DNA of 64,000 nucleotides from contig JAMASS010000015.1 in NCBI GenBank assembly GCA_024761205.1, forward strand, positions 1 through 64,000. Reading direction: 5' to 3'. Shown here piece by piece: positions 10,251 to 32,346 of the stretch; the first letter of the stretch is position 1, and each line of letters starts with the position of its first letter. The notes beneath the pieces were generated by a model, which was given only the letters and a program-made list of their open reading frames with translations, ran no database searches and had not been told where the DNA came from. A program made the position numbers and the translations under genes. The stretch comes from Limisphaerales bacterium (GTDB lineage: Bacteria; Verrucomicrobiota; Verrucomicrobiia; Limisphaerales; AAA164-E04).

Positions 10251-11555
10251 CGAGTCAGCTTTCATCGTTCAGATCAAGGGAAACGCACATGGTCTCCACC
10301 GCCGACTCAACCCATTCAATGTGGTCCGCCAACCATTGCGGGTTCTCCGTATTGCCTTCACCCAGTTCCCGCCACGCCCAATCCCACCGTTCCCGAAGGT
10401 GGTCCGCGGCGACAAAAATGGTTCAGAGTCGCGGGTTTTGGTTCGGGGAGAGCACTCTCAAAGTGTGCCGCTCCTTCGGCGTCTGACCATCATCACCCGT
10501 AAAAAGCGGTATCATCTCGATCACTTCCTTCGCCAACAACAACAGACCAGACTGCTTTGACACGTCAATCAAGCGTTGAAACTGCGTTTTGGAACGCTCA
10601 TGAGCACGATGGTGAATTGCCAAGCTGAGTCCCAACCGCAAATCTTATGAAGCTCCTGTCTTTGCTGCACTTTGGGATCGGGCGACGCCAACCGTCGTTG
10701 CCTTTCTGCTTCGCGCTAGCGCCTCCTTTCAGCGTATTCTTCATACACGCGAATTGTCTTCTTCTGTCGCGCGTTTGGTGCTCTCGAGACAGTTTCGTGA
10801 TACTTGGGATGATCCTTGAGCCGTTCTGCAACGTATTCGTGCCAACGCTTCAAACGGTCTGTGCGAGACTTAAAATCAATGTCTTGCAGCGCTCCCGAAG
10901 GCTTCAAAGGCCGTTCCTTGGCGGCTCGAAGACGTGGATTCACTTCCCGCTAATGGGCCAGTTTCCCCGCCAGTTGCTGATAAGCGGAACCTTGCGGCCG
11001 GCTTTCTTTCTTCACTTCCGCTGGCGTCTTGGCGGTTTCCGCTGACGGTGCGGCTTCCGCAACGCTCGCCTTGGGGAGACAGGGCCGCCGTCCGCTAGGC
11101 GGAGCGGTATCCCAGCTAGGCAATGGCAACTGCAACGTAAAGCATTCGATTTTTCAGGGTCTTTTGCCTTCCTCTTGCACAGTTTAGTAGTTAGTAAGTT
11201 TGCGAGCAATCGAGATACTGCTGCCAGGAAGCCGTCATGCGAGCATTGCGGTTTCTGTCATTGGCTTCGTATTGAGGCCTGTATTTATCGGGTGGCCTTC
11301 TCTCGGACAATGGCCTCTTGTTCGGTCTTTTCGAGTCTAGCCTGTTGAATGCCTCTGCCGCCTCATTGGTCGGCCAGGATTTGGGCGTTCCGGGCATGGA
11401 TTTCATTCCATCAGGGCAACCTCAGGATCCCACTGGCGCTGACGCGGGAGTCGGCGGTGAATTGGTTGAAGTTTGTGCTGCTGATTGATTGATGCCGCCG
11501 ATTGCCAGCATCACCGTGAGGGAAATCGGAAAAGGGTTTGTTTGATTAGCTTCAT
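10251..11555 (-). pseudogene. Broken gene for an unknown secreted protein
   Basis: ATG 11555 has an AGAGAGAA ribosome site just upstream and opens a signal peptide that continues after an early frameshift as ISLTVMLAIGGINQSAAQ. Coding-like pieces follow in several frames: EAFNRLDSKRPNKRPLSE, TDRLKRWHEYVAERLKDHPK, EVIEMIPLFTGDDGQTPKER and finally ADHLRERWDWAWRELGEGN with a TGA near 10251. Joined, they would make a secreted protein of roughly 430 residues. I do not recognise the family. At least four frame changes are needed, so it is not functional. A folded repeat element lies directly upstream, in the same position relative to the gene as the related element at 32.1 kb. Confidence 0.5.
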
Positions 11556-11679
11556 TTCGATTCTCTCTGTTATTTAATCGTATTTGTTTTGTTGTTAACA
11601 GCTCGGCATCCGTGGAGCGTCACTCAACGGACTTTGCTTGGCTGTTGATTCCATACTTGCGGGTAAACGCGAAAGGCCT

Positions 11680-11905
11680 CGCCTGTTCGCCTGAACACCG
11701 GAAAGGGGTCTGAAATCCCTCCCACCGCTTTTAGTCCAGGCTGTTGTATTCAGTGGGTGACTCAACGTTAGGTCGCCCCAAATATATAATCAGAAACAGG
11801 CTAAATTGAAGACAAGGCCGGCATTAAGAGGAAAAAGTCACTTTCCCTGCATTTTTTCGGGCGGGGATTTTTGGCGGCAGGCGGCGGTCAAAAGGCGCCA
11901 TTCAT
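11680..11905. repeat. Folded dispersed element, copy A
   Basis: This stretch shares with 32057-32260 an exact 22-base core (11680-11701, starting CGCCTGTTCGCC), then CTGTTGTATTCAG about 50 bases on, and a similar far end around GGTCAAAAGGCGCCATTC. Total spacing is nearly equal (about 206 versus 189 bases), while the middle has diverged. A GTTAGGT motif follows the core region here. Both copies sit between the 3' end of one minus-strand gene and the 5' end of a minus-strand gene for a signal-peptide protein. It might be a recombination site, terminator or leader. No integrase is in the window. Confidence 0.6.
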
Positions 11906-19219: not shown

Positions 19220-22200
19220 CTACTCAATGATCTTGAAGTATTCCTGAGTCTTCTGAACTCGAAGACGGAACGGGCTCTCCGAATTGGCAATCGGAACGTA
19301 AGGCCCCTCGATATCCGAAGCAATGCCCAACCTTCCTCTCCCTTCCCAGCGGATCTCGACAAACCCATCGCCGACATTGACAACGCTTATGCTGTCCCTG
19401 CCAAAAGTAAGCTCATGAACCAATACTTCGAAAGATTGACTCGCCGTTCCGCCGTCAGCATCAACAATCACGATCTCGAACCTTACCGCGCCACTCACTG
19501 CTGGAGCAAAGTTGATCAACAAACTCCTTTCCGCTTGATCTCCCTGAACTGCAAACGTGGTCGCCCCCAGACTCAGTGGATCCAGAGCACGTGCTCCAAT
19601 CCAGAGATTCGCCGGCATGGTTTCAACGTCGCTGACCGAAAACGCCACCGAGTGGACGCTTCCTAGATCGGCCTCCGAGTTAGGAATCACTGAAAGAATG
19701 GGGCGGTCATTTACGGGCTCAACCGCAATGGCCAGGTGATGTTCAGTATCCAGGTCCCCGTCGGAGACCTGAACAACCATCACCGCGTCGCCAAAAGCAT
19801 CTTTGGCCGGTTGCAAGAGAATCTCGATCATGCCTCCCAATCGAGTCATCTCAAACGAAAGTGGCGGAAATAAATGACGATTATCAACTGAGATCCCCAC
19901 CGCCAAATCGGATAAGGAAGTCTCCATATCCCCAATTTCTAGCAGAACCCTCCCCCGTCCATCCTCTTCGATCACTAAGTCCGTTGGCCCTGTCAGTCGC
20001 GGCGGCTGATTCGGACCCCGGACGAAAACATTCACCGACTTCGTGACCGTCTCAAATCCGTCCGATACGGACACCGCCAGAGACGCCTCTCCCGTGCGAA
20101 TAGCAGATGGCTCAAACTCCATGACGATCCCCTCATCTCTTTGTACTACCTCGATCTGCGCTGGCGAAATTAAGGACGGATTGTTCGACGCCACCGCAAT
20201 CGACAATGATTCCAAAGCTGTATCCAGATCAGCAACTTCCAAGGGAACGACCACTCTCTCACCCGGCCGAGCCTCTAAATCAGCCAGATCAGCAAGAGTC
20301 GGGGGATCATTCACAGGAACAACGTTGAGCGCCCGAACCGACGATTCGCTGAACACCTCAGCATCCCTCACCTGAAACGAGATCAAACGGATCACAGAAC
20401 TTGGCACGTCACTCAAGTTGACATATCGAACTGCCCGAATAGCGTCTTGATAGGCTAAAAGCCCCGCAGTTCCGGTCAGGCTCAGAACCCCGGTCGTGAC
20501 ATCAAAGGCAGCGGCCGAAATACCCTCCGCCAATTCACCGACGAGCAAAGTATCCTCACCCGCCATGTAATTGCCAAAAATTCGAACTCTTGCCCCCGTG
20601 AAAACCTGGTCGTCGGCCGTAGTAACAAGAATCGACTCACTCAGACCGACCGGTTCTTCATTCTCGACATAGACCGCCGGACTTTTCTCGAGTCGGGCCA
20701 GTACCGGAACATCATTGACGGCTTCAATGGAAACAATTGCGGCAATCCGGTTGCTGTGCCCCTCCTCATCCCGAACGGAGATGGTCACCGTTCGAGCCAG
20801 CGTCGACGGGCTGTCGCTTCGATTTTGGTAGCCCACCCTCGCTAAAGCGGCTTGATACTCAGCCACTGAAGCCACACCCGTCAATTCCAACACACCGGTA
20901 TTTGCATCGAATGTCCCGGTGATGGGGCTCCCGCGAGACGAATAGAGTAGCTTATCTTGGTTGGGGAAAAAATGCTCCGAAATCCCGACGCTGGCACCAA
21001 CAAGAGTGTCGCTATCAATATCCCGGATCTCGATCTGATTTGCCACGGACACAGCCGGTTCATCTTCAACGTAGACAATCGGCTCATTGCCAACCACCGT
21101 GATTTCAGGCAGGTCGTTGACTGGTTCTACCACGACGACCGCCGAAAGAAGCCTCTCTTGAAAAGCATCGAGGACGCGGATCTCCACGGTAGTTTGGCCA
21201 AACGCGTTCGGCTGCGGCCGAAGTAAGAGCCGGTAGAGACCATCCTCCTCGTCAAAGGCTACCTCCTCCACCGTGATCAGTTCCGGAGCCAAGGACGTCA
21301 CCCGAACCGACAGATCGCCCGGCGGAGTTGAGTCATCAGCCACCCTCAACGGCACGGACAAGTCCTGGTCCTCATCAACGACTAACTTGGGAATGGGTTC
21401 GATCTCGGGCGCTTCGTCAAAATCGTCGTTTACAATCCGAACCAATGATATCACCTGCGAACCCGTGTCACCCGAAAGCAACTGTCCGGGCGCGATCTCC
21501 AATCGCGCCAAAATCGTTTCCCTTTCTTCAATGACAAAATCTGGCCTGATCGGCAAATCCACCTGCTGAGTAATCTCGCCCGCTTCAAAGGTCACCGCTA
21601 CCGGTGCCGAATCAAAATCGATCCCCGGCTTGGCCCCCAATCTTCCCCCCCCCGTCTCAAGCGATACGATCAAACGCACCGAGCCCTTGTTGCCTCCTCG
21701 CCGCACAAGAAAAACCGGGGTATCCACTGAACTCTCCTGGACTTCAAAGGAAACCGCGGCAAACTCAAATAGCCCGCCAAAGTCATCATCAATCAACTTT
21801 AGAACACTAGAGTCCTCGGGTCCGACTGGCGACCCCGCCTCAGTGCCTCCCTGGAACAAGCTCAGTCGAACCGTCTCCTCACCTTCCACTAGGCCATCGC
21901 TTCTCAAGATTCCAACACTAGAGAGATCAATTTCTTGGTAGACCTCGCCATCCTGAAACTGAACGACAATGGGTTGATCGACAAAATCATCAGGACTAGA
22001 CGCCGTTTCACCGTCGAGGGTAATCGTTAACTTCAATGATCCAGACCGCCCTCCCTCCCGCACTAAAGCGACGGGTTCATACACCTTTCCAGCCTCACTA
22101 ATACAAAAGGAACGATGCAGAAAACGAACCTTACCGGCCCCCTCTTGATCACCCAATATGTCAATTCCGGGATAGTCCTGAATTCGATGATCGAGGCGGG

Positions 22201-25200
22201 ACGCCTCAAAGTCATATCGCACTTGAGAGGCAATCTCCCCGGCAATCCCTATCTGCTCCAAGTCAGGAACAATGGCAAACGCATTTGCCAACTGTAAGCG
22301 CGTCACTGCCTCAAGAAACGCTGAAAAGGAACCCTCAAACCCGAGAAGCCTTTCAATCCGTCCGACATGCTCGCACAGGACCCGAGTGCCAAAACGGACG
22401 AGCTCTAGGGGCAACTCCACTTCGACCTCGCTGGCCACGAACCTGAGGAGATCCTCAATAAGATCACATTGCGGAAGGTCCAGAAAATCCGTATCGACTA
22501 TCGTCCGTAGAGTCGCCTCGGCCACACGCTCCCGGGTTTGTTCCGATACTCCGGAAACCAAAGCACTGATTTGCTGAACCAGTGACTGAAGAGACGACAA
22601 GCGGATCAAAACAATTCGCGCCAATGCGGGATCATCAGAGAATCTCGCCAGCGGATTGAACGCTAGCAAGGACCCGGGAGCGTCAAAGAATGCCTCCAAC
22701 CCCACGCGTTCCAACACCAGTTGCTCCGCCTCGTTCAAGCCGGGCACGTCATTGCGTTCCAACGCCAAAGCCGCCAAAGTCGAAAACGGGGAGAGCACGG
22801 ACACCCCTAGGGGCGCTCGCAACTCAAATTCAAGAGCCTGTCCGGTCACTCTATCAACTCCCGAAGTCATCCGAATGTGCCCGTCCCTAGCGGACAATTC
22901 CCCGTCACCGTCCCGATCAAAATCAATGAAGCGGCCCTCGAACCGAAACGAACCGTCTCGGACAGTTTCGACCCTCGGCTCTGCGCCATCATGCACTCCG
23001 TTTAAGTTGAAATCCAAAAACGCTGTGGCTCCGACCAAACAACCACCCAGCGTTTTTCCTTCCAAGGCGACGATTTCGTGAACAGTCAAATCAAACTCGA
23101 CGAACTCGGTCAATTCACCGTCACTTGCTTCCAATCGTATAGTGCGCTTCCCAAAGGCTCCCGGCCGAAGAGACAGTCGCACCACCCAGTCGCCGCCCGC
23201 CACCTCGGGGGCGATCACTTCTGTGGACACCAATTGCTCGTCGTTCAAAACCGCCCTCAAACTGAGCGCAGAAGCCGGACTGTCGACATCCTCCACCTGA
23301 AGACGCAACTCCACATCGGAGGAATCCTGATCCACCTGCAACAGGTCAGGTGCCGAAGCGATCGTGGGTGGATCGGGGACCGGAGCCACCTCCACCGTAA
23401 CGGTAGCAGTTGCGATCAAGACCCCGTCAGAAACCGTGTAAGTGAAAGTCTCTACTCCCGTGAAATTCGGAGCGGGCGTGTAGACGGCGTGAGTCCCTTG
23501 GTCATCCAGTCGCACCACCCCTCCCTCGCTCCCAGGTCCGTGCACGGCCATCAACCGGACCTCGTCACCATCAGGATCCGAGTCCACTGAATTTCCATTG
23601 TCTTCGAGTAACGCAAGTCGGTTCCCGGTCGAATCCTCGCTTACCGTGAAAGCATCATCCTGAGCAATCGGCGCATCATTGTCTCCTCGAGCCACAACGA
23701 CGGAAACGGCACCCTTGGCTTGGTGCACACCATCACTAATCGTGTATTCGAACTGATCCACGCCAAAAAAATCGCCGGATGGCTCATAAAAAAGTTTCGT
23801 GCGGTTCTCAGAAATCCGGATACTTTGAGATCCTTCACTCGACTCAGATGCCGCAACGATCATCAGCGGATCATTATCCGGATCGGAATCACGCCCAGCC
23901 CCGTTGTCGGCGAACACGTCTAGCTCAATCTCACCATCATCCTCCAGGGCAAAGAATCGATCCGGTTGTGCCACGGGCGGATCATTGTCAACATTCACGA
24001 CATCAATCGTCACCACAGAAACCGCTTGCCGGCGGCCATCTGTAATTGAATAACGAAATACTTCCCGACCGATGAAATCAGGAATGGGAGTATAAACAAC
24101 GGTGCGCTGGCTTTCTCCAACCACCAAACTTCCCATGGTGCCATCCTGCGGCGCAACGGACACGACCCGCACCTCGCCACCCTCAGGATCAAAATCCACA
24201 CCGTTCCCATTGTCTTGGAGGACCTGAATCACCTGGTTTGATTGATCCTCCGAAAGTTCCACGACGTCCGGCCTTGCCACCGGCGGATCATCGTCAACGT
24301 TTATGACGGAAGTGATGACTTGCCCCACTGCCACCAGAGTTCCGTCACTGACTTCGTAACTGAAGACCTCCTCGCCTGAGAAGTTCTCTGCCGGCGTGTA
24401 GATTAAAACGTTACGATCCTCGCTCACGGCTAATTGCCCCCCACTGCTCCCCTGCGGATCGACTCCCGAAATAAATAAAGGCAGGCCTTCTGGATCCCAG
24501 TCGAATCCGCTCTCATCACTCCCGAGCACCGCCAAGTGATTCTCGGCCGAATCCTCATCGACCTCAAAGCGATCATCGATCGCCACGGGCGGATCATCAT
24601 CCACATTGGCAACCAGCAGGATCACCGTCGCAACGGACACCGCACCACCATCGCTCACGGCATAAGTAAAGGTCTCTTCCCCGATAAAATTCGGCGCTGG
24701 GAAATAAACCAGTTCCCGACCCTCCGGCCCGATGGTCAAAGAACCCATGAACGACTCACTCGAGGTCTCAAAAGACTGGATCACTAGCACCCCTCCCTCG
24801 GGGTCCTGATCCGGTCCAGCCCCATTATCCGCAAGAACAGCAAGCCTTTGATTCGGGAGATCTTCAATCAACTCGAACCGATCATCACGAGCCACCGGTG
24901 GGTCGTCATCGACGTTGACTACCGTGACCCAAACCGTAGCTTCTGTACTCAGGACGCCGTCACTGACCGAATAAATGATCTCATCAAGCCCGGAAAAGTC
25001 CACCGGTGGGGTATAAATCAGTGCCTGACCATCATTGGAAAGATTTACAACACCACCGGGCGCCCCCGCTCCATCCGGCAGAGCAATGGTCAGTGAGTCC
25101 CCTTCCGGGTCGAAATCAATCCCCTCACCATTGTCGGCCAAAACGTCCAAACGGATCCCAACCGCTCCCTCATCAAGAGTGAAACGATCATCTCTTGCGA

Positions 25201-27199
25201 TCGGCGGCTCGTTGTTCATATTGGCCACCGTGACAAAAACAAATCCGCTTGCGCTCAGCTCTCCATCTGAGATCGTATAGCTAAAGACCTCACTCCCTAC
25301 AAAATTGCTCGCTGGAGTATAGACCACCTTCTGCCCGGCAGCGTCCAACTGAATCCGGCCACCCTCAGATCCTTCCGCTGCCACTGCGACCAGTGCGATC
25401 GGATCGCCATCCGGATCAAAGTCATGACCGTTCCCGTTGTCGTTTAACAAGGCAAACTCATTGGGACCAGAGTTCTCCTCAACCAGGAATCGATCATCTC
25501 GCGCTACCGGCGCATCCGCTCGATCATTCACCACGGAAATAGTCACCCGAGCCGTTGCCACCCCGCCATTCCCATCGGAGATCGTATATTCAAAACTCTC
25601 GATTCCGAAGAAGTTTGCGGGAGGCGTGTAACGAATCCCTCCCCCGGCAATCCTCACCGTCCCACCACTCGACGCCGCACCGACCGATTCGATCCTCAGC
25701 GTCTCGCCCAAATCAGGTCCGACAAGATCGTTCCCAAGAACATTGAGAAAGGCGTCGATCACATCCTCAGGCAAGCTCACGTCGTCATCGGACGCTACCG
25801 GAGGGTCATTGACACCCACCACCTCCACGCGCACCACACCCTCGGATGTCTCCCCGTTTCCATCCGTGACGATATAGCGAAACTCTTCAATACCAAAAAA
25901 ATCTGAACGGGGCGTATAGATCACCAAATCATCCCGAGCGACGATCGTTCCCCCTTGATCTCCCGCGGTTACGGCTTTAATCACCAATGTCTCATTCTCA
26001 TCGGGTCGATCACTATCGTTGGCCAAAACTGCGATCTGATTCCGAAAGCTGTCTTCGGAAACACTAGCCCTATCGTTCACCACCGTAGGGGGATCGTTTA
26101 TGGCGTTGACCTCAATCCGCACCCTTCCGGTTGCCGTGAGCCCGCCATTATCGATAATGACATAGCTGAATTCTTCCGCACCGTTAAAATCTGGCGCCGG
26201 CCGATACATGACTTGAGTCCCATCATGATTAATCTCCCCTCCTGCCGAACCTTCCGAGACTGAGAGAATCATTAATGTCTCTCCCGTATCGGGGAGAACC
26301 GTGTCGTTCGCCAGCACATCAATCGTTGTCGTTTCAGCATCCTCATCCAGACCGAAGGCATCATTCACTGCGGTGGGAGGATCATTGATGGGAAGCACGG
26401 TAACGACAAAAGAAGCCTCCTGGACCCCGCCGGTTTGATCCACCACCCGAATGCCAATCTCAGCCATCCCGGACTGATTGGGTTCCGGCTCGATCACCAA
26501 TTCCCGGTTCTCGCCCGTCCCTGACAATGAGATGCCTTGAGGTGAGATCAATGACGGATTGGATGACGAAAAAGAAATCGTCAGCTGATCGACCGACGTC
26601 GTGTCATCGGCTAGCGAAATCGACACCGGAGCTGAGAGAAGATCCTCCGACATTGAAAAATCACTAATCCCCTCGATCGACGGCGGAAGACCGACGGTGA
26701 GTATCCCAGAAACCGCTTGAAACGGAGCACTGGCGAGATCCTGGACGACCAACCGGATAGTCGGATCATCAGTGAACTCAACGACAGATGACGATCCATC
26801 CGGTCCCGTCACCAGAAAAGTGAGCGAAAAGAGGACACTCCCATCTTCCAGAGATACCCCTTCAACCGTCGAGGAATCCCAAACGACCGTTAATCGGCCC
26901 AACACGGGAAAATATCCAAAGCCGCTACTCGCTAAACTGGGAATCGCGAAGTCACCAGCTTCCATGAACTCGAACTGCGCCGGATCCCAGCTCAAGGTGA
27001 ACTGAAAGGCCTGTACCAAAGAAAAATCAGCAATCCGAATCTCAACTTTCAATGGCGTGCCATGGCTCCCTGCGGCATCATCCACTTGAAACTGAACGGC
27101 ACCCAGCGGACTCAGACCAAGGCCCCAAAACATAGCGAAAAAACCGAACCACTTTGTCGAACCTCCAAACTCAACTCCGCACCATCTACTCATCCTCAT
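19220..27199 (-). CDS. Giant secreted modular protein with cohesin-like, cadherin-like and Calx-beta domains
   Basis: This protein has 2659 residues. A signal peptide (about 1-34) is followed by a cohesin-like domain (about 36-172). Ten tandem cadherin-like 'tandem-95' units (about 270-1280) each start like DPPVARDDRFELxED and include VLADNGxGxDxDPEGD. A SdrD-B-like/alpha-helical insert follows with an EF-hand-like DFDRDGDGELSARDG (about 1423). Two Calx-beta domains span about 1700-1925, then further cadherin-like units. The end is a short C-terminal domain (DGFVEIRWEGRGRLGIASDI to YFKIIE) typical of verrucomicrobial exported proteins. Repeats with DxD/DxND motifs imply calcium-stiffened rods. 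A role in adhesion or matrix assembly is inferred. ATG 27193 is an alternative start. Despite its length, the frame is intact. Confidence 0.92.
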   Translation of the reverse strand: MRMSRWCGVEFGGSTKWFGFFAMFWGLGLSPLGAVQFQVDDAAGSHGTPLKVEIRIADFSLVQAFQFTLSWDPAQFEFMEAGDFAIPSLASSGFGYFPVLGRLTVVWDSSTVEGVSLEDGSVLFSLTFLVTGPDGSSSVVEFTDDPTIRLVVQDLASAPFQAVSGILTVGLPPSIEGISDFSMSEDLLSAPVSISLADDTTSVDQLTISFSSSNPSLISPQGISLSGTGENRELVIEPEPNQSGMAEIGIRVVDQTGGVQEASFVVTVLPINDPPTAVNDAFGLDEDAETTTIDVLANDTVLPDTGETLMILSVSEGSAGGEINHDGTQVMYRPAPDFNGAEEFSYVIIDNGGLTATGRVRIEVNAINDPPTVVNDRASVSEDSFRNQIAVLANDSDRPDENETLVIKAVTAGDQGGTIVARDDLVIYTPRSDFFGIEEFRYIVTDGNGETSEGVVRVEVVGVNDPPVASDDDVSLPEDVIDAFLNVLGNDLVGPDLGETLRIESVGAASSGGTVRIAGGGIRYTPPANFFGIESFEYTISDGNGGVATARVTISVVNDRADAPVARDDRFLVEENSGPNEFALLNDNGNGHDFDPDGDPIALVAVAAEGSEGGRIQLDAAGQKVVYTPASNFVGSEVFSYTISDGELSASGFVFVTVANMNNEPPIARDDRFTLDEGAVGIRLDVLADNGEGIDFDPEGDSLTIALPDGAGAPGGVVNLSNDGQALIYTPPVDFSGLDEIIYSVSDGVLSTEATVWVTVVNVDDDPPVARDDRFELIEDLPNQRLAVLADNGAGPDQDPEGGVLVIQSFETSSESFMGSLTIGPEGRELVYFPAPNFIGEETFTYAVSDGGAVSVATVILLVANVDDDPPVAIDDRFEVDEDSAENHLAVLGSDESGFDWDPEGLPLFISGVDPQGSSGGQLAVSEDRNVLIYTPAENFSGEEVFSYEVSDGTLVAVGQVITSVINVDDDPPVARPDVVELSEDQSNQVIQVLQDNGNGVDFDPEGGEVRVVSVAPQDGTMGSLVVGESQRTVVYTPIPDFIGREVFRYSITDGRRQAVSVVTIDVVNVDNDPPVAQPDRFFALEDDGEIELDVFADNGAGRDSDPDNDPLMIVAASESSEGSQSIRISENRTKLFYEPSGDFFGVDQFEYTISDGVHQAKGAVSVVVARGDNDAPIAQDDAFTVSEDSTGNRLALLEDNGNSVDSDPDGDEVRLMAVHGPGSEGGVVRLDDQGTHAVYTPAPNFTGVETFTYTVSDGVLIATATVTVEVAPVPDPPTIASAPDLLQVDQDSSDVELRLQVEDVDSPASALSLRAVLNDEQLVSTEVIAPEVAGGDWVVRLSLRPGAFGKRTIRLEASDGELTEFVEFDLTVHEIVALEGKTLGGCLVGATAFLDFNLNGVHDGAEPRVETVRDGSFRFEGRFIDFDRDGDGELSARDGHIRMTSGVDRVTGQALEFELRAPLGVSVLSPFSTLAALALERNDVPGLNEAEQLVLERVGLEAFFDAPGSLLAFNPLARFSDDPALARIVLIRLSSLQSLVQQISALVSGVSEQTRERVAEATLRTIVDTDFLDLPQCDLIEDLLRFVASEVEVELPLELVRFGTRVLCEHVGRIERLLGFEGSFSAFLEAVTRLQLANAFAIVPDLEQIGIAGEIASQVRYDFEASRLDHRIQDYPGIDILGDQEGAGKVRFLHRSFCISEAGKVYEPVALVREGGRSGSLKLTITLDGETASSPDDFVDQPIVVQFQDGEVYQEIDLSSVGILRSDGLVEGEETVRLSLFQGGTEAGSPVGPEDSSVLKLIDDDFGGLFEFAAVSFEVQESSVDTPVFLVRRGGNKGSVRLIVSLETGGGRLGAKPGIDFDSAPVAVTFEAGEITQQVDLPIRPDFVIEERETILARLEIAPGQLLSGDTGSQVISLVRIVNDDFDEAPEIEPIPKLVVDEDQDLSVPLRVADDSTPPGDLSVRVTSLAPELITVEEVAFDEEDGLYRLLLRPQPNAFGQTTVEIRVLDAFQERLLSAVVVVEPVNDLPEITVVGNEPIVYVEDEPAVSVANQIEIRDIDSDTLVGASVGISEHFFPNQDKLLYSSRGSPITGTFDANTGVLELTGVASVAEYQAALARVGYQNRSDSPSTLARTVTISVRDEEGHSNRIAAIVSIEAVNDVPVLARLEKSPAVYVENEEPVGLSESILVTTADDQVFTGARVRIFGNYMAGEDTLLVGELAEGISAAAFDVTTGVLSLTGTAGLLAYQDAIRAVRYVNLSDVPSSVIRLISFQVRDAEVFSESSVRALNVVPVNDPPTLADLADLEARPGERVVVPLEVADLDTALESLSIAVASNNPSLISPAQIEVVQRDEGIVMEFEPSAIRTGEASLAVSVSDGFETVTKSVNVFVRGPNQPPRLTGPTDLVIEEDGRGRVLLEIGDMETSLSDLAVGISVDNRHLFPPLSFEMTRLGGMIEILLQPAKDAFGDAVMVVQVSDGDLDTEHHLAIAVEPVNDRPILSVIPNSEADLGSVHSVAFSVSDVETMPANLWIGARALDPLSLGATTFAVQGDQAERSLLINFAPAVSGAVRFEIVIVDADGGTASQSFEVLVHELTFGRDSISVVNVGDGFVEIRWEGRGRLGIASDIEGPYVPIANSESPFRLRVQKTQEYFKIIE

Positions 27200-28503: not shown

Positions 28504-29583
28504 TCAGTTAACGAGCAGCGGGTCGCCGGGCTTCAGCATGTTTTCATATTTACCGTGCGGGATGATGGGGTGATGTTGGAGCATGACCTCCGCCGGAAGC
28601 TCTTGAAGCAAACGCTCCCGCAGAACTCTTCCCTCTTCTTTTGGAATTAGTGACACACGCTTGCCATCCATCCTTTTTGAAGTCAGCGCGGTCAGCAGGG
28701 AGTCATAGGTACCCGTCGCTTTTGCTTCCCAGGTTATTTGGTAATACTCGGTGGAAGGCGGATCCGTGTTCGGATTGACAGTCATATAACGAGCGGGATA
28801 AAGCGCCTCCGGGTCCTGGCTGTTTGCCCGATGATAATGCACCAAATGCTCAAAGACCTTTCCCCAAACCACAGGGTCTGCTCCTAACCCGGCCTCCAGA
28901 AGCATGCCGTGCATTTTCTCGAACTCCGGCGAGTATATCTCCCGCTGATGATCCTCATACATAGTCGTGAGAAAAACATGGCGGTCAACCATCTGTTGCG
29001 GCTTCTCGGCCCGTCTCTCCGCCTCCTCAAGGCGCTTGTCCATCTCCTCAAGGCGCTTGTCCCTCTCCTCATCCATTGGCCCGTCCCATAACTCATCCAT
29101 ACGCTCCCACATCTCTTCCACTTCCAACTTCAGCCTGTTTTCCATTTCCGGGTCGTAAGTGATTTCTGGATGATGGGTCGGCTCGAAAGGGAAGTTGGCA
29201 ATCCATTCCTGCCGGCTCTCCCAATAGGCCGCTTCCTTGGCTTCTTCTTCCGCTTGGCGTCGTCGTTCTTCGGCATCACGTTCGTCCTGCGCTTTGATTT
29301 GTGCGGCTTCCTCGGGCGTCGGCGGGCGCAAGTCGCCGTTTTCATCGGCAATAAAGTATTCCGGAAAGGCGCTGCCCTGCGTCCGTTGTTTCTGCAACCG
29401 CTGGTAGGCGCTTTCCGAAGGCTCCGACGATTCCGTTGTCTCCGCCCCGGTTGCGGTGGGTGAGGGGGTGGCGGTCTCTTCAAGGGCCGGGCGGGTCTTT
29501 GCAGACGGCCACCCAAAAACAAGCCAGAGGATGATGAGTGTCACACCCGCCAGCCCGGCATAGAAAGAAAGGTTTGTTTTCAT
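28504..29583 (-). CDS. Unknown membrane-anchored coiled-coil protein, tandem paralogue copy 2
   Basis: The 359-residue protein has an N-terminal membrane anchor (YAGLAGVTLIILWLVFGWP), a Thr/Ser/Glu/Pro linker, a charged coiled coil (QIKAQDERDAEERRRQAEEE) with two 7-residue EMDKRLE repeats, and a C-terminal domain ending in MLKPGDPLLVN. It is almost identical to the gene at 29686-30792 except in two patches, near HLVHYHRANSQDP and LTSKRMDGKRVSL. No family is recognised. No ribosome site precedes this ATG: its upstream bases derive from the spacer of the duplication and include a terminator. Expression may therefore be weak unless transcription reads through. Confidence 0.7.
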   Translation of the reverse strand: MKTNLSFYAGLAGVTLIILWLVFGWPSAKTRPALEETATPSPTATGAETTESSEPSESAYQRLQKQRTQGSAFPEYFIADENGDLRPPTPEEAAQIKAQDERDAEERRRQAEEEAKEAAYWESRQEWIANFPFEPTHHPEITYDPEMENRLKLEVEEMWERMDELWDGPMDEERDKRLEEMDKRLEEAERRAEKPQQMVDRHVFLTTMYEDHQREIYSPEFEKMHGMLLEAGLGADPVVWGKVFEHLVHYHRANSQDPEALYPARYMTVNPNTDPPSTEYYQITWEAKATGTYDSLLTALTSKRMDGKRVSLIPKEEGRVLRERLLQELPAEVMLQHHPIIPHGKYENMLKPGDPLLVN

Positions 29584-29624
29584 GGCCGCAGTATGGGGTT
29601 GGTCTGGGAAACTTCAAGGACTCC

Positions 29625-29659
29625 AAAAAAAGGCCAGACCCCGGGAAAAGGGTCTGGCC
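29625..29659 (-). terminator. Intrinsic terminator between the tandem paralogues
   Basis: A perfect 10-base stem, GGCCAGACCC (29632-29641) with GGGTCTGGCC (29650-29659), closes a CGGGAAAA loop. On the minus strand it is followed by seven T residues (29631-29625). It should end transcription after the 29686 gene and so separate it from copy 2. Confidence 0.85.
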
Positions 29660-29685
29660 GTCTGCAAAAACCTTGGCCGTTCGGG

Positions 29686-30792
29686 TCAGTTAACGAGCAG
29701 CGGGTCGCCGGGCTTCAGCATGTTTTCATATTTACCGTGCGGGATGATGGGGTGATGTTGGAGCATGACCTCCGCCGGAAGCTCTTGAAGCAAACGCTCC
29801 CGCAGGACTCTTCCCTCTTCTTTTGGAATTAACCGTGTATCCACTGCATTGCCAGGTATCCTTTTTGAAGTCAGCACGGTCAGCAGGGAGTCATAGGTGG
29901 AAGCCGCTGCTGCTTCCCAGGTTATTTGGTAATACTCGGTGGAAGGCGGATCCGTGTTCGGATTGACAGTCATATAACGAGCGGGATAAAGCGCCTCCGG
30001 ATCGTGACTGTTTTTCTGGTGATAACGCACTAGATGACGGAAAACCTCTCCCCAAACCACAGGGTCTGCCTCTAACCCGGCCTCCAGAAGCATGCCATGC
30101 ATTTTCTCGAACTCCGGCGAGTATATCTCCCGCTGATGATCCTCATACATGGTCGTGAGAAAAACATGGCGGTCAACCATCTGTTGCGGCTTCTCGGCCC
30201 GTCTCTCCGCCTCCTCAAGGCGCTTGTCCATCTCCTCAAGGCGCTTGTCCATCTCCTCAAGGCGCTTGTCCATCTCCTCATCCATTGGCCCGTCCCATAA
30301 CTCATCCATACGCTCCCACATCTCTTCCACTTCCAACTTCAGCCTGTTTTCCATTTCCGGGTCGTAAGTGATTTCTGGATGATGGGTCGGCTCGAAAGGG
30401 AAGTTGGCAATCCATTCCTGCCGGCTCTCCCAATAGGCCGCTTCCTTGGCTTCCTGTTCCGCTTGGCGTCGTCGTTCTTCGGCATCACGTTCGTCCTGCG
30501 CTTTGATTTGTGCGGCTTCCTCGGGCGTCGGCGGGCGCAAGTCGCCGTTTTCATCGGCAACAAAGTATTCCGGAAAGGCGCTGCCCTGCGTCCGTTGTTT
30601 CTGCAACCGCTGGTAGGCGCTTTCCGAAGGCTCCGACGATTCCGTTGTCTCCGCCCCGGTTGCGGCGGGTGAGGGGGTGGCGGTCTCTTCAAGGGCCGGG
30701 CGGGTCTTTGCAGACGGCCACCCGAAAACAAGCCAGAGGATGATGAACGCCCCGCCCGCCAGCCCGGCATAGACGTAAAGGTTTGTTTTCAT
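29686..30792 (-). CDS. Unknown membrane-anchored coiled-coil protein, tandem paralogue copy 1
   Basis: The 368-residue protein has the same plan as copy 2: membrane anchor (YAGLAGGAFIILWLVFGWP), a Pro/Thr/Ser/Glu linker, a charged coiled coil and a C-terminal domain with YYQITWEAAAASTYDSLL. The coiled coil has three full copies of a 21-base repeat (30211-30273) against two in copy 2. GGAAAGAACACC before ATG 30792 is a good ribosome site, and the gene follows the 30815 gene by only 22 bases, so the two are likely co-transcribed. A perfect terminator follows. The function is unknown. The anchor followed by a long charged helix suggests a periplasmic or cytoplasmic-face protein bound to the inner membrane. 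Confidence 0.75.
   Translation of the reverse strand: MKTNLYVYAGLAGGAFIILWLVFGWPSAKTRPALEETATPSPAATGAETTESSEPSESAYQRLQKQRTQGSAFPEYFVADENGDLRPPTPEEAAQIKAQDERDAEERRRQAEQEAKEAAYWESRQEWIANFPFEPTHHPEITYDPEMENRLKLEVEEMWERMDELWDGPMDEEMDKRLEEMDKRLEEMDKRLEEAERRAEKPQQMVDRHVFLTTMYEDHQREIYSPEFEKMHGMLLEAGLEADPVVWGEVFRHLVRYHQKNSHDPEALYPARYMTVNPNTDPPSTEYYQITWEAAAASTYDSLLTVLTSKRIPGNAVDTRLIPKEEGRVLRERLLQELPAEVMLQHHPIIPHGKYENMLKPGDPLLVN
30211..30273. repeat. Three 21-base tandem repeats in coding sequence
   Basis: The unit CTCCTCAAGGCGCTTGTCCA(T) occurs three times here and twice (one base changed) at 29023-29064. On the minus strand it codes for the heptad MDKRLEE, so copy-number change alters coiled-coil length without a frameshift. 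Confidence 0.9.
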
Positions 30793-30814: not shown

Positions 30815-31954
30815 TTATTGCGTTGCTTGATAGGTCTTCCGCTGCTTCACGACAAGCTTTGGTTTTCTTTTCTGACATTCCGGGGCAAGCACAACAGACG
30901 GGACAAGCATAGAATACCTCCTACCACCGTCAAAACCTGAAACCCGAACCCAAACCACTCTTCGATTGTGCAGCTGCAACCACCCGTGGCCGCAGGTTGG
31001 TTCTCCGGTATCCTCTTCCACCCAGCGAACCACATTGCCTCTGACGGTACGGGTACTGGACAGCAGCATTTCGTTCCGTCCAACAAGGTTGTGGGTGCTT
31101 GAGGAGGTTCGATGACAGGGCATCTGAAAAAATTTTTCACGGTACTTTGTTTTTCCGTAGTTGATTCCGTCCCCCTGATAACCCAGGTCTTGGCCCACTA
31201 CCCACTCCAATTTGACGGTGTAGGTGTCCGGGTCCCGGAGTTTGGGATGCGCCCCCGGAGTCTCGTCGTATTTGGACTCAACTTCAAATGCCCCCACGTT
31301 CCAAATCTCTCTTCTGTCCGTCATCAGTATGCCGAGGTTCAGTTCATCATTGCGGTGATATTCCCGCAATCCGGCAATGGCTTCCTGAGCGTTGAAAGGC
31401 TTGGCCCTTGTGCCGTACCAAGTGTTGACCATGAGAGGCCCAAAGCTGTCATTAATCTCGTATGTTTTCATCCATCCCATCACACGTGCCATGTAAAACG
31501 GCGACGTGTGGTCATTGTTTCTTGTTGCCAATTCAGGAGTCATTTCATGCGGTTGGCTGAAATACGCGTTCATTGGCAGAAGATTGCCATTCAGGTCCAC
31601 GCTGTCATTGGGAAACCCTGCACCGTGCTTGAGTCTTTCGCTTATTCTCCAGTAACCATGCAGCCACCAGGGGCCGTCGGGATGCGCGTTGCTGTTGTGC
31701 TGACGCGGGTCGGGGTTTTTCGCCAACCAGGCGTCCAGGGCCTGCCCGGCGGCCAGTTCGATGATGATGGCGAGGACGGTCTCCTTCGTGAGCAACTTCG
31801 AGAGGGCCGCCGTTACCGGTATTGCAGCGCGGGTGGTCATCGGCAGCAGGGCTATTGCGACTGTCAGGACCGCCAAGATCAGCAGTTTGTTCAGGGTTGG
31901 CTTCGCTTGCCGGGCAAGCGCTGCCAGCAATTGGATAACGGAGAATTTTTTCAT
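30815..31954 (-). CDS. Unknown exported protein, first gene of cassette
   Basis: I start the gene at ATG 31954, which opens MKKFSVIQLLAALARQ and then a hydrophobic export signal (LLILAVLTVAIALLPMTTRA). The 50 residues upstream in the same frame are read through the folded element and are unlikely to be coding. The mature part (about 320 residues) is rich in Trp, His and Asn, with WWLHGYWRISERLKHGAGF, SPFYMARVMGW and CGHGWLQLHNRRVVWVRVSG, and has a basic C-terminus. No known family is evident. It precedes the two membrane-anchored paralogues by 22 bases and is preceded by palindromes at 31977-32038. Confidence 0.7.
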   Translation of the reverse strand: MKKFSVIQLLAALARQAKPTLNKLLILAVLTVAIALLPMTTRAAIPVTAALSKLLTKETVLAIIIELAAGQALDAWLAKNPDPRQHNSNAHPDGPWWLHGYWRISERLKHGAGFPNDSVDLNGNLLPMNAYFSQPHEMTPELATRNNDHTSPFYMARVMGWMKTYEINDSFGPLMVNTWYGTRAKPFNAQEAIAGLREYHRNDELNLGILMTDRREIWNVGAFEVESKYDETPGAHPKLRDPDTYTVKLEWVVGQDLGYQGDGINYGKTKYREKFFQMPCHRTSSSTHNLVGRNEMLLSSTRTVRGNVVRWVEEDTGEPTCGHGWLQLHNRRVVWVRVSGFDGGRRYSMLVPSVVLAPECQKRKPKLVVKQRKTYQATQ

Positions 31955-31976: not shown

Positions 31977-32038
31977 TCTGCTAATGTGTTAGTAATCTCC
32001 GACGCAACACGTCGGGACGTTGATAACACTTTAGCAGA
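31977..32038. repeat. 62-base palindrome upstream of the cassette (attC-like shape)
   Basis: TCTGCTAATGTGTTA (31977-31991) pairs with TAACACTTTAGCAGA (32024-32038) with one mismatch. Inside, CCGACG (31999-32004) pairs with CGTCGG (32010-32015). GCTAAAGTGTTATC at 32152-32165 is a third, inverted copy of the outer arm (GATAACACTTTAGC, 32022-32035). The two-stem shape recalls integron attC sites or a REP-type element, but the core GTTRRRY consensus is not clearly met and no integrase is present. Confidence 0.65.
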
Positions 32039-32056
32039 TGAATGCAGGAAGTACCC

Positions 32057-32260
32057 GCCTGTTCGCCTGAACACCGGGGAAGTTGTACGGCTTCCCCGGC
32101 GCATGGATTCAGACTGTTGTATTCAGCAGGCGACCCGACCTCGAGACGACAGCTAAAGTGTTATCGGGAGCAATTACGTCAGAAGCCAAAGTCGGTGTCA
32201 ACGGCAAATCGGGATTTTTTCGATTTTTTTGCGTGGCCGGGAGACGGTCAAAAATAGCCA
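32057..32260. repeat. Folded dispersed element, copy B
   Basis: This stretch shares its 22-base core (32057-32078), the CTGTTGTATTCAG motif and a far end (GACGGTCAAAAATAGCCATTC) with 11680-11905. Here the core is followed by a strong hairpin, CCGGGGAAG with CTTCCCCGG, and the outer CGCCTG pairs with CAGGCG. It lies between the end of the oxidoreductase gene (32347) and the start of the cassette gene (31954), partly inside the palindrome set. Confidence 0.65.
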
Positions 32261-32346
32261 TTCCCCGGTGTTGTTGCGGTTCGGTATGGGATGGCGAGAC
32301 GGCGGGCAACCGCAGCATTTCTGCCGCTGCGGACCAAAGTCCGCGC

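Follow-up and report, generated by a model that had tools for sequence, protein, structure and literature searches.

The closest described relative of the RNA analysed here is sRNA-Xcc1 (Rfam family RF02221), which was mapped as a discrete 88-nt RNA and treated as a free small RNA (PMC2996969), has been discussed as trans-acting in Xylella (PMC12189769), and is found both ahead of symE toxin genes and as cargo of integron cassettes (PMC12444791). The window that we analysed, a 64,000-nt stretch of the genome of a Limisphaerales bacterium (contig JAMASS010000015.1 of assembly GCA_024761205.1), holds two loci that have in common an exact 22-base match (11680-11701 and 32056-32077), one of six direct-repeat families within the window. 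Both loci carry CTGTTGTATTCAG at similar spacing, as a preliminary description of this DNA had reported, and both are recovered on the minus strand by a covariance model, copy A at 11631-11794 with 103 bits (E 4e-19) and copy B at 32006-32168 with 162 bits (E 4e-32). An Rfam search of the window at gathering score gave no match, riboswitches included, and a permissive search returned chance hits only, with copy B devoid of any RF02221 match. The features of the copy B leader, of its neighbours and of copy A are the following, all on the minus strand.

32196-32201: -35-like box TTGACA of the leader promoter (sequence; TTGAC is conserved across copies, and the score peaks at a fixed 4-nt gap in both the MAG and source-genome sets)
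32173-32178: -10-like box CGTAAT, 17 bp past the -35 box (sequence, positional score peak)
about 32165-32168: predicted transcription start, at the first base of P1
32006-32168: structured RNA core of copy B, 161-164 model positions (covariance model, covariation)
32152-32165: P1a, 5' strand of the outer helix P1, GATAACACTTTAGC (two-sided changes in P1 pairs)
32022-32035: P1b, 3' strand of P1, GCTAAAGTGTTATC, which across the family doubles as anti-Shine-Dalgarno strand (covariation, pairing tests)
31977-31991: third arm TAACACATTAGCAGA, with which P1b can pair instead, ending 22 nt ahead of the start codon (pairing energy)
32131-32139: PK 5' strand GTCGGGTCG, pairing across P1 as a pseudoknot (covariation)
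32011-32019: PK 3' strand CGTCCCGAC (covariation, sequence)
32125-32130: P2 5' strand CCTGCT (covariation)
32054-32059: P2 3' strand GGCGGG (covariation)
32115-32124: GAATACAACA, a strand of the internal loop, nearly invariant (column conservation; also in sRNA-Xcc1)
32060-32064: GAACA, the internal-loop strand opposite GAATACAACA (alignment columns)
32109-32114: P3 5' strand GTCTGA, with its partner at 32065-32070 (covariation)
32071-32102: P4, a long, variable, GC-rich hairpin (RNAalifold, covariation)
30815-31954: gene 1 behind copy B, encoding a 379-aa secreted protein with a signal peptide (ORF; no Pfam match)
29686-30792: gene 2, encoding an N-terminal TM segment and a coiled coil (ORF; 23-nt gap to gene 1)
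28504-29583: tandem paralogue of gene 2 (window repeats, ORF)
11631-11794: structured RNA core of copy A, with a diverged P1 (covariance model)
10301-11553: decayed remnant of the gene or genes behind copy A (18-20 or more stops, in all frames)

Genes 1 and 2 are likely co-transcribed, given the gap between them. A Pfam search with gene 1 found no match, and gene 2 gave just a weak coiled-coil-type match to Exonuc_VII_L, below cut-off. The TM/coiled-coil paralogues of gene 2, arranged in tandem after gene 1 (28504-30792), are 90-99% identical, and second genes similar to gene 2 are present behind several further copies of the RNA in the source genome. Elsewhere in the window, a minus-strand gene (19220-27199) encodes a 2659-aa protein with many bacterial Ig, cadherin-like and Calx-beta domains. 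A gene with a signal peptide had at first been placed behind each copy; this is true of copy B, where the minus-strand gene at 30815-31954 is intact, but not of copy A, behind which lie decayed, frameshifted remnants alone.

Copies of the element were aligned in gene orientation and represented by a covariance model, R1. The fold consists of helices P1, P2, P3 and P4, a helix GUCGGG/CCCGGC that crosses P1, and a nearly invariant GAAUACAA/GAAYA internal loop, so that what had been described as a diverged middle able to refold is a set of covarying helices. RNAalifold run on 18 copies picked GUCGGG/CCCGGC, P2, P3 and P4 unprompted, while the outer helix P1 appears in single-copy folds; since P1 crosses GUCGGG/CCCGGC, the two together form a pseudoknot. 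In the full structure, 91% of cells of the 18-copy alignment were paired, against 35-47% in slid controls, with two-sided changes in 28/45 pairs (0/500 shuffles). Across 70 copies from many phyla, 93% of cells were paired (shuffles, 73%; slid controls, 31-45%), compensatory changes were found in 36 of the 45 pairs (0/500 shuffles), and two-sided cells numbered 623 where 189 were expected. The PK helix was paired in 95-96% of cells, with G-C to A-U and other compensatory changes. Pairs of P1 changed on both sides at 13/14 positions in the 18 copies and at 14/14 in the 70, the letters of this helix changing completely between copies with pairing kept. The 70-copy alignment leans towards P1 because it was fitted to a model containing it, and P1 was therefore retested on elements found with R2, a model lacking P1; among these, the P1 duplex energy averaged -26.6 for true partners and -9.5 (sd 0.6) for permuted ones (0/5000). 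Core length ranges from 123 to 169 nt across members. Read on the gene strand, the alignment contains 439 G.U pairs and 71 A.C combinations, an excess which identifies the folded molecule as RNA of the gene strand. The permutation tests reported here take loci as independent, a few of which are near-duplicates.

BLASTN with positions 31977-32260 located 20 places in the source genome, with copies about 67-80% alike, and R1 raised the number to 53 copies (E<=0.003). A search of 40 relatives with the RNA model hit the source genome alone. Searches over more than 40 genomes were run with stricter filters; under these, the other 319 genomes examined in the order, of which three belong to the source's own genus, gave no match, and one further genome was matched among 383 others of the class. 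A degenerate core pattern scanned over about 85,000 species genomes yielded 33 loci, all 33 of which R1 matches (E 3e-11 to 2e-18), more distant members having been missed since the pattern came from the source genome. By their record titles, these loci come from Alpha- and Gammaproteobacteria, Holophagales, Poribacteria, Nitrospinae and a deltaproteobacterium. Judging from bin names, and from one record that is explicitly sponge, their genomes are mostly sponge-associated MAGs; 28 of them carry 1-12 copies each. In evenly drawn genomes of one such phylum the RNA occurred in 3/398, including the centre genome itself, and a scan of IMG/VR with the core pattern found none. This patchy occurrence across phyla argues for horizontal transfer, and points to an RNA that has spread among bacterial phyla, mostly in sponge-associated genomes. 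Literature searches did not find an RNA of this kind in sponge symbionts. To our knowledge, few structured cis-regulatory RNAs are common to several phyla yet tied to no single pathway, and very few have about 50 copies in one genome.

Many dispersed copies might also be expected of a feature acting at the DNA level, such as an integron attC site, a transposon end or a MITE folding as single-stranded DNA. The carriage of sRNA-Xcc1 by integron cassettes would suit such a feature, as would the IS1595-type transposases lying near 13/36 pattern-set loci (L109-L141). However, the latter link was not replicated in the hold-out loci, only 3/45 of which have an IS1595 transposase nearby; the source genome has 42 IS1595 matches, many of them fragmentary. 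On this evidence the mobile cassette end of the preliminary description is at most a candidate. The attC-like recombination site put forward in the preliminary description fares no better: in the source genome the integron integrase model TIGR02249 stayed below cut-off, and looking for an integrase elsewhere in that genome, as had been advised, turned up sub-threshold XerC/D-like matches only (1/29 genomes tested has an integrase over cut-off). The copies are moreover solitary and scattered rather than arrayed, the constrained strand is that of the RNA, as its strong G.U bias indicates, and that strand has a promoter and Shine-Dalgarno pairing (below). We consider a DNA-level function highly improbable.

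A sigma70-like pair of boxes precedes P1 at a fixed distance, the mean consensus score peaking at a 4-nt gap with 6.3 in the MAG set, against 3.6 (sd 0.2) elsewhere, and with 6.6 in the source genome, against 3.9 (sd 0.6) elsewhere. Many promoters at source-genome copies are preceded by 1-3 direct repeats of a conserved sequence, GGTATCGGTG(GGGTATCGGTG), which in the window lies at about 32240-32290 and is possibly an activator site. Downstream, gene starts mostly fall 25-60 nt past the core, and no U-tract terminator was found after it. In one case (L121:3596-3955), two divergently oriented copies of the RNA are separated by about 65 bp, and each precedes a gene of its own.

Clustering showed the downstream genes to be largely unrelated among themselves, and they share no pathway, but the proteins that they encode are mostly signal-peptide, lipoprotein or membrane proteins. 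A hydrophobic N-terminus was scored in 21/29 proteins of the MAG set (p 7e-9) and in 18/24 of the source genome (p 2e-8), compared to 26/154 control ORFs, and in 22 of 37 downstream genes of the hold-out, using a crude hydropathy threshold with which some misses reflect wrong start or frame calls. Exceptions to the export signal include envelope functions, e.g. GT25 LPS glycosyltransferases. Several source-genome copies precede decayed genes, and at some copies (L072, L075, L084, L092, L097) a pseudopilin-like protein is encoded after a short leader gene.

These neighbourhoods bear on two other readings. The RNA may belong to a toxin-antitoxin-like cassette in which the leader holds back, or the RNA neutralises, a toxic secreted protein, the second gene being its partner. 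The symE toxins that follow sRNA-Xcc1 (PMC12444791), the source genome's two-gene cassettes, whose first genes vary, and the suitability of a leader that hides the Shine-Dalgarno sequence for a toxic gene all speak for it. Yet the MAG downstream genes are mutually unrelated, comprise a CsgG-like protein and a GT25 LPS glycosyltransferase among others and include no constant partner gene, and neither gene 1 nor gene 2 matches a toxin family, making such a cassette an unlikely one. Alternatively, the core could bind not a metabolite but a protein, such as a factor of translation or secretion, and so couple translation of export genes to that factor, as an autoregulatory or membrane-targeting leader. 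The enrichment of export signals among otherwise unrelated genes and the invariant internal loop are consistent with this proposal, whereas the diversity of the downstream genes does not fit classical autoregulation, and the genes behind the RF02221 relatives encode phage regulators (Bro-N, Rha, P22_AR) and SymE instead of exported proteins. A factor-binding leader of this type is conceivable, if rather doubtful.

Besides its P1 partner, P1b has a second complementary region, ahead of the start codon. In the MAG set, pairing of P1b with the region before the start codon averaged -16.8, against -14.2 (sd 0.42) for mismatched pairs (z -6.2, 0/2000), and the P1b:downstream pairing recurred in the hold-out of elements found with the model lacking P1 (z -4.8, 0/5000). 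Neither P1a nor the linker between P2 and P1b (V) gave a signal with the downstream region in the MAG set or the hold-out. P1b pairs preferentially with positions -20 to -6 relative to the start codon (mean helix score z 8.2), and the Shine-Dalgarno sequence itself is covered by P1b in, for example, L133, L117, L132, L120 and L112. Individually, just 12/51 MAG elements exceeded the 95% level of mismatched pairs, so the anti-Shine-Dalgarno strand need not serve in every member; in the source genome the P1b:downstream signal was weak (z -2.3, 25/2000).

Copy B is, even so, a strong case of competition for P1b. Three GATAACACTTTAGC-type arms are present, as first described, at 32152-32165, 32022-32035 and 31977-31991, and the pairing of P1b with the third arm as well as with P1a accounts for the palindrome and the alternating orientation of arms then noted. 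The two states are nearly isoenergetic (P1, -18.8; P1b:third arm, -18.0 kcal/mol); folded as a whole, the leader adopts the third-arm pairing in its minimum-energy structure. Because this arm ends 22 nt before the ATG, and not on a clear Shine-Dalgarno sequence, an effect on translation would be less direct in copy B. Of the functions offered in the preliminary description, the structured leader RNA is the one with strong support, from covariation, strand-specific G.U bias, a promoter at the 5' end, a constant position before genes and anti-Shine-Dalgarno pairing; the further copies, stem covariation and association with gene starts that it had recommended looking for were all found.

The element resembles sRNA-Xcc1 below the level of family membership. 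L128 scored 30.7 bits against RF02221 at a permissive threshold, and the best score among elements was 34.5 bits, under the gathering score of 53. At E<1, 19/21 RF02221 matches in 28 sponge-type genomes fell on independently found elements, the single RF02221 match in the source genome is a copy of the element, and in the reverse test R2 recovered 10/30 RF02221 loci. Two intermediates connect the families: L258, which fits both models (57.5 bits with R2, 37.2 bits with RF02221), and L259, a bridging homologue in which the P1a sequence is repeated at the ribosome-binding site. As gathering threshold, length and integron context all fail, the element is a diverged relative of sRNA-Xcc1 and not a member. 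An Xcc1-like pattern also occurred in 26 viral contigs, which were treated as chance since 0/20 scanned reach the RF02221 gathering score.

RF02221 itself, at 30 Pseudomonadota loci, mostly lies 25-55 nt before genes, including those for SymE, Bro-N, Rha and P22_AR. Pairing of its hairpin loop and 3' part with the ribosome-binding region next to it averages -22.1, compared to -17.7 (sd 0.55) for permuted partners (0/5000); complementarity of the variable loop to the ribosome-binding site is seen among L202-L231, e.g. CTTGTTGC with GGAGCAACAAG in L231. This suggests that sRNA-Xcc1 works as a cis leader, either instead of acting in trans as a small RNA or in addition to it. The same comparison weighs on the reading of our element as an independent trans-acting RNA whose place before genes is incidental. 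That reading follows the usual description of sRNA-Xcc1, with its discrete 88-nt transcript (PMC2996969) and its discussion as trans-acting in Xylella (PMC12189769). Against it, no U-tract terminator stands behind the core, the distance to gene starts is short and near-constant, pairing to the element's own adjacent Shine-Dalgarno region exceeds that of permuted partners, export genes are enriched downstream, and even in RF02221 the loops match the gene that follows them. We thus regard independent trans action as quite unlikely.

In our assessment, the element is probably a structured 5' leader RNA which controls translation in cis, has spread horizontally and is a diverged, pseudoknotted relative of sRNA-Xcc1; its RNA fold, pseudoknot, promoter position, gene association and two competing P1b partners were established by computation. 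In the mechanism that we propose, whose polarity is assumed, formation of P1 and the pseudoknot would leave the ribosome-binding site free (on), and pairing of P1b with the ribosome-binding site would block translation (off). The conserved core, pseudoknot and GAAUACAA loop together, would bind a putative small molecule or protein that sets the balance: binding of the signal to the core and the GAAUACAA/GAAYA loop would favour P1 and the pseudoknot and so free the ribosome-binding site, which P1b would cover when the signal is absent. More tentatively, the element may represent a new class of translational switch, sensing a ligand or a protein, defined by the P1/GUCGGG pseudoknot and the GAAUACAA/GAAYA loop, exchanged between sponge-symbiont phyla, controlling exported and surface proteins and occupying about 53 loci in one genome, which would place the 'trans-acting' sRNA-Xcc1 in the same superfamily, as another cis leader. 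If so, symbionts of different phyla would control export and display through one mobile RNA device, the sensed signal would become a direct experimental target, and sRNA-Xcc1 would gain a testable cis mechanism in the complementarity of its hairpin loop to the next gene's ribosome-binding site.

Among known systems, integron attC sites likewise keep an imperfect palindromic structure despite sequence change, and sRNA-Xcc1 rides in integron cassettes; the present element differs in occurring as single copies at gene 5' ends, with RNA-strand bias and no tandem cassette array that has a site at the 3' end of each gene. With sRNA-Xcc1 it shares, in the same order, an outer GC helix (here the PK helix), P2, an internal loop AAUACAA/GAAUA and P3, and both RNAs lie just ahead of genes whose ribosome-binding site can pair with a variable strand of the RNA. 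In contrast to the 88 nt of sRNA-Xcc1, the core here is longer, at about 145-165 nt, and has an additional covarying helix, P1, that creates the pseudoknot; the genes downstream are mostly export genes instead of phage and integron regulators, and the integron context of sRNA-Xcc1 is absent. The element resembles translational riboswitches and other Shine-Dalgarno-sequestering leaders in having a structured core in a 5' UTR adjoining gene starts, and alternative pairings that exclude each other, the Shine-Dalgarno sequence being covered by one of them in the MAG sets (and weakly, at z -2.3, in the source genome). It matches no Rfam riboswitch and differs from that class in that its 5'-most strand, P1a, is the anti-anti-Shine-Dalgarno strand and encloses the core.
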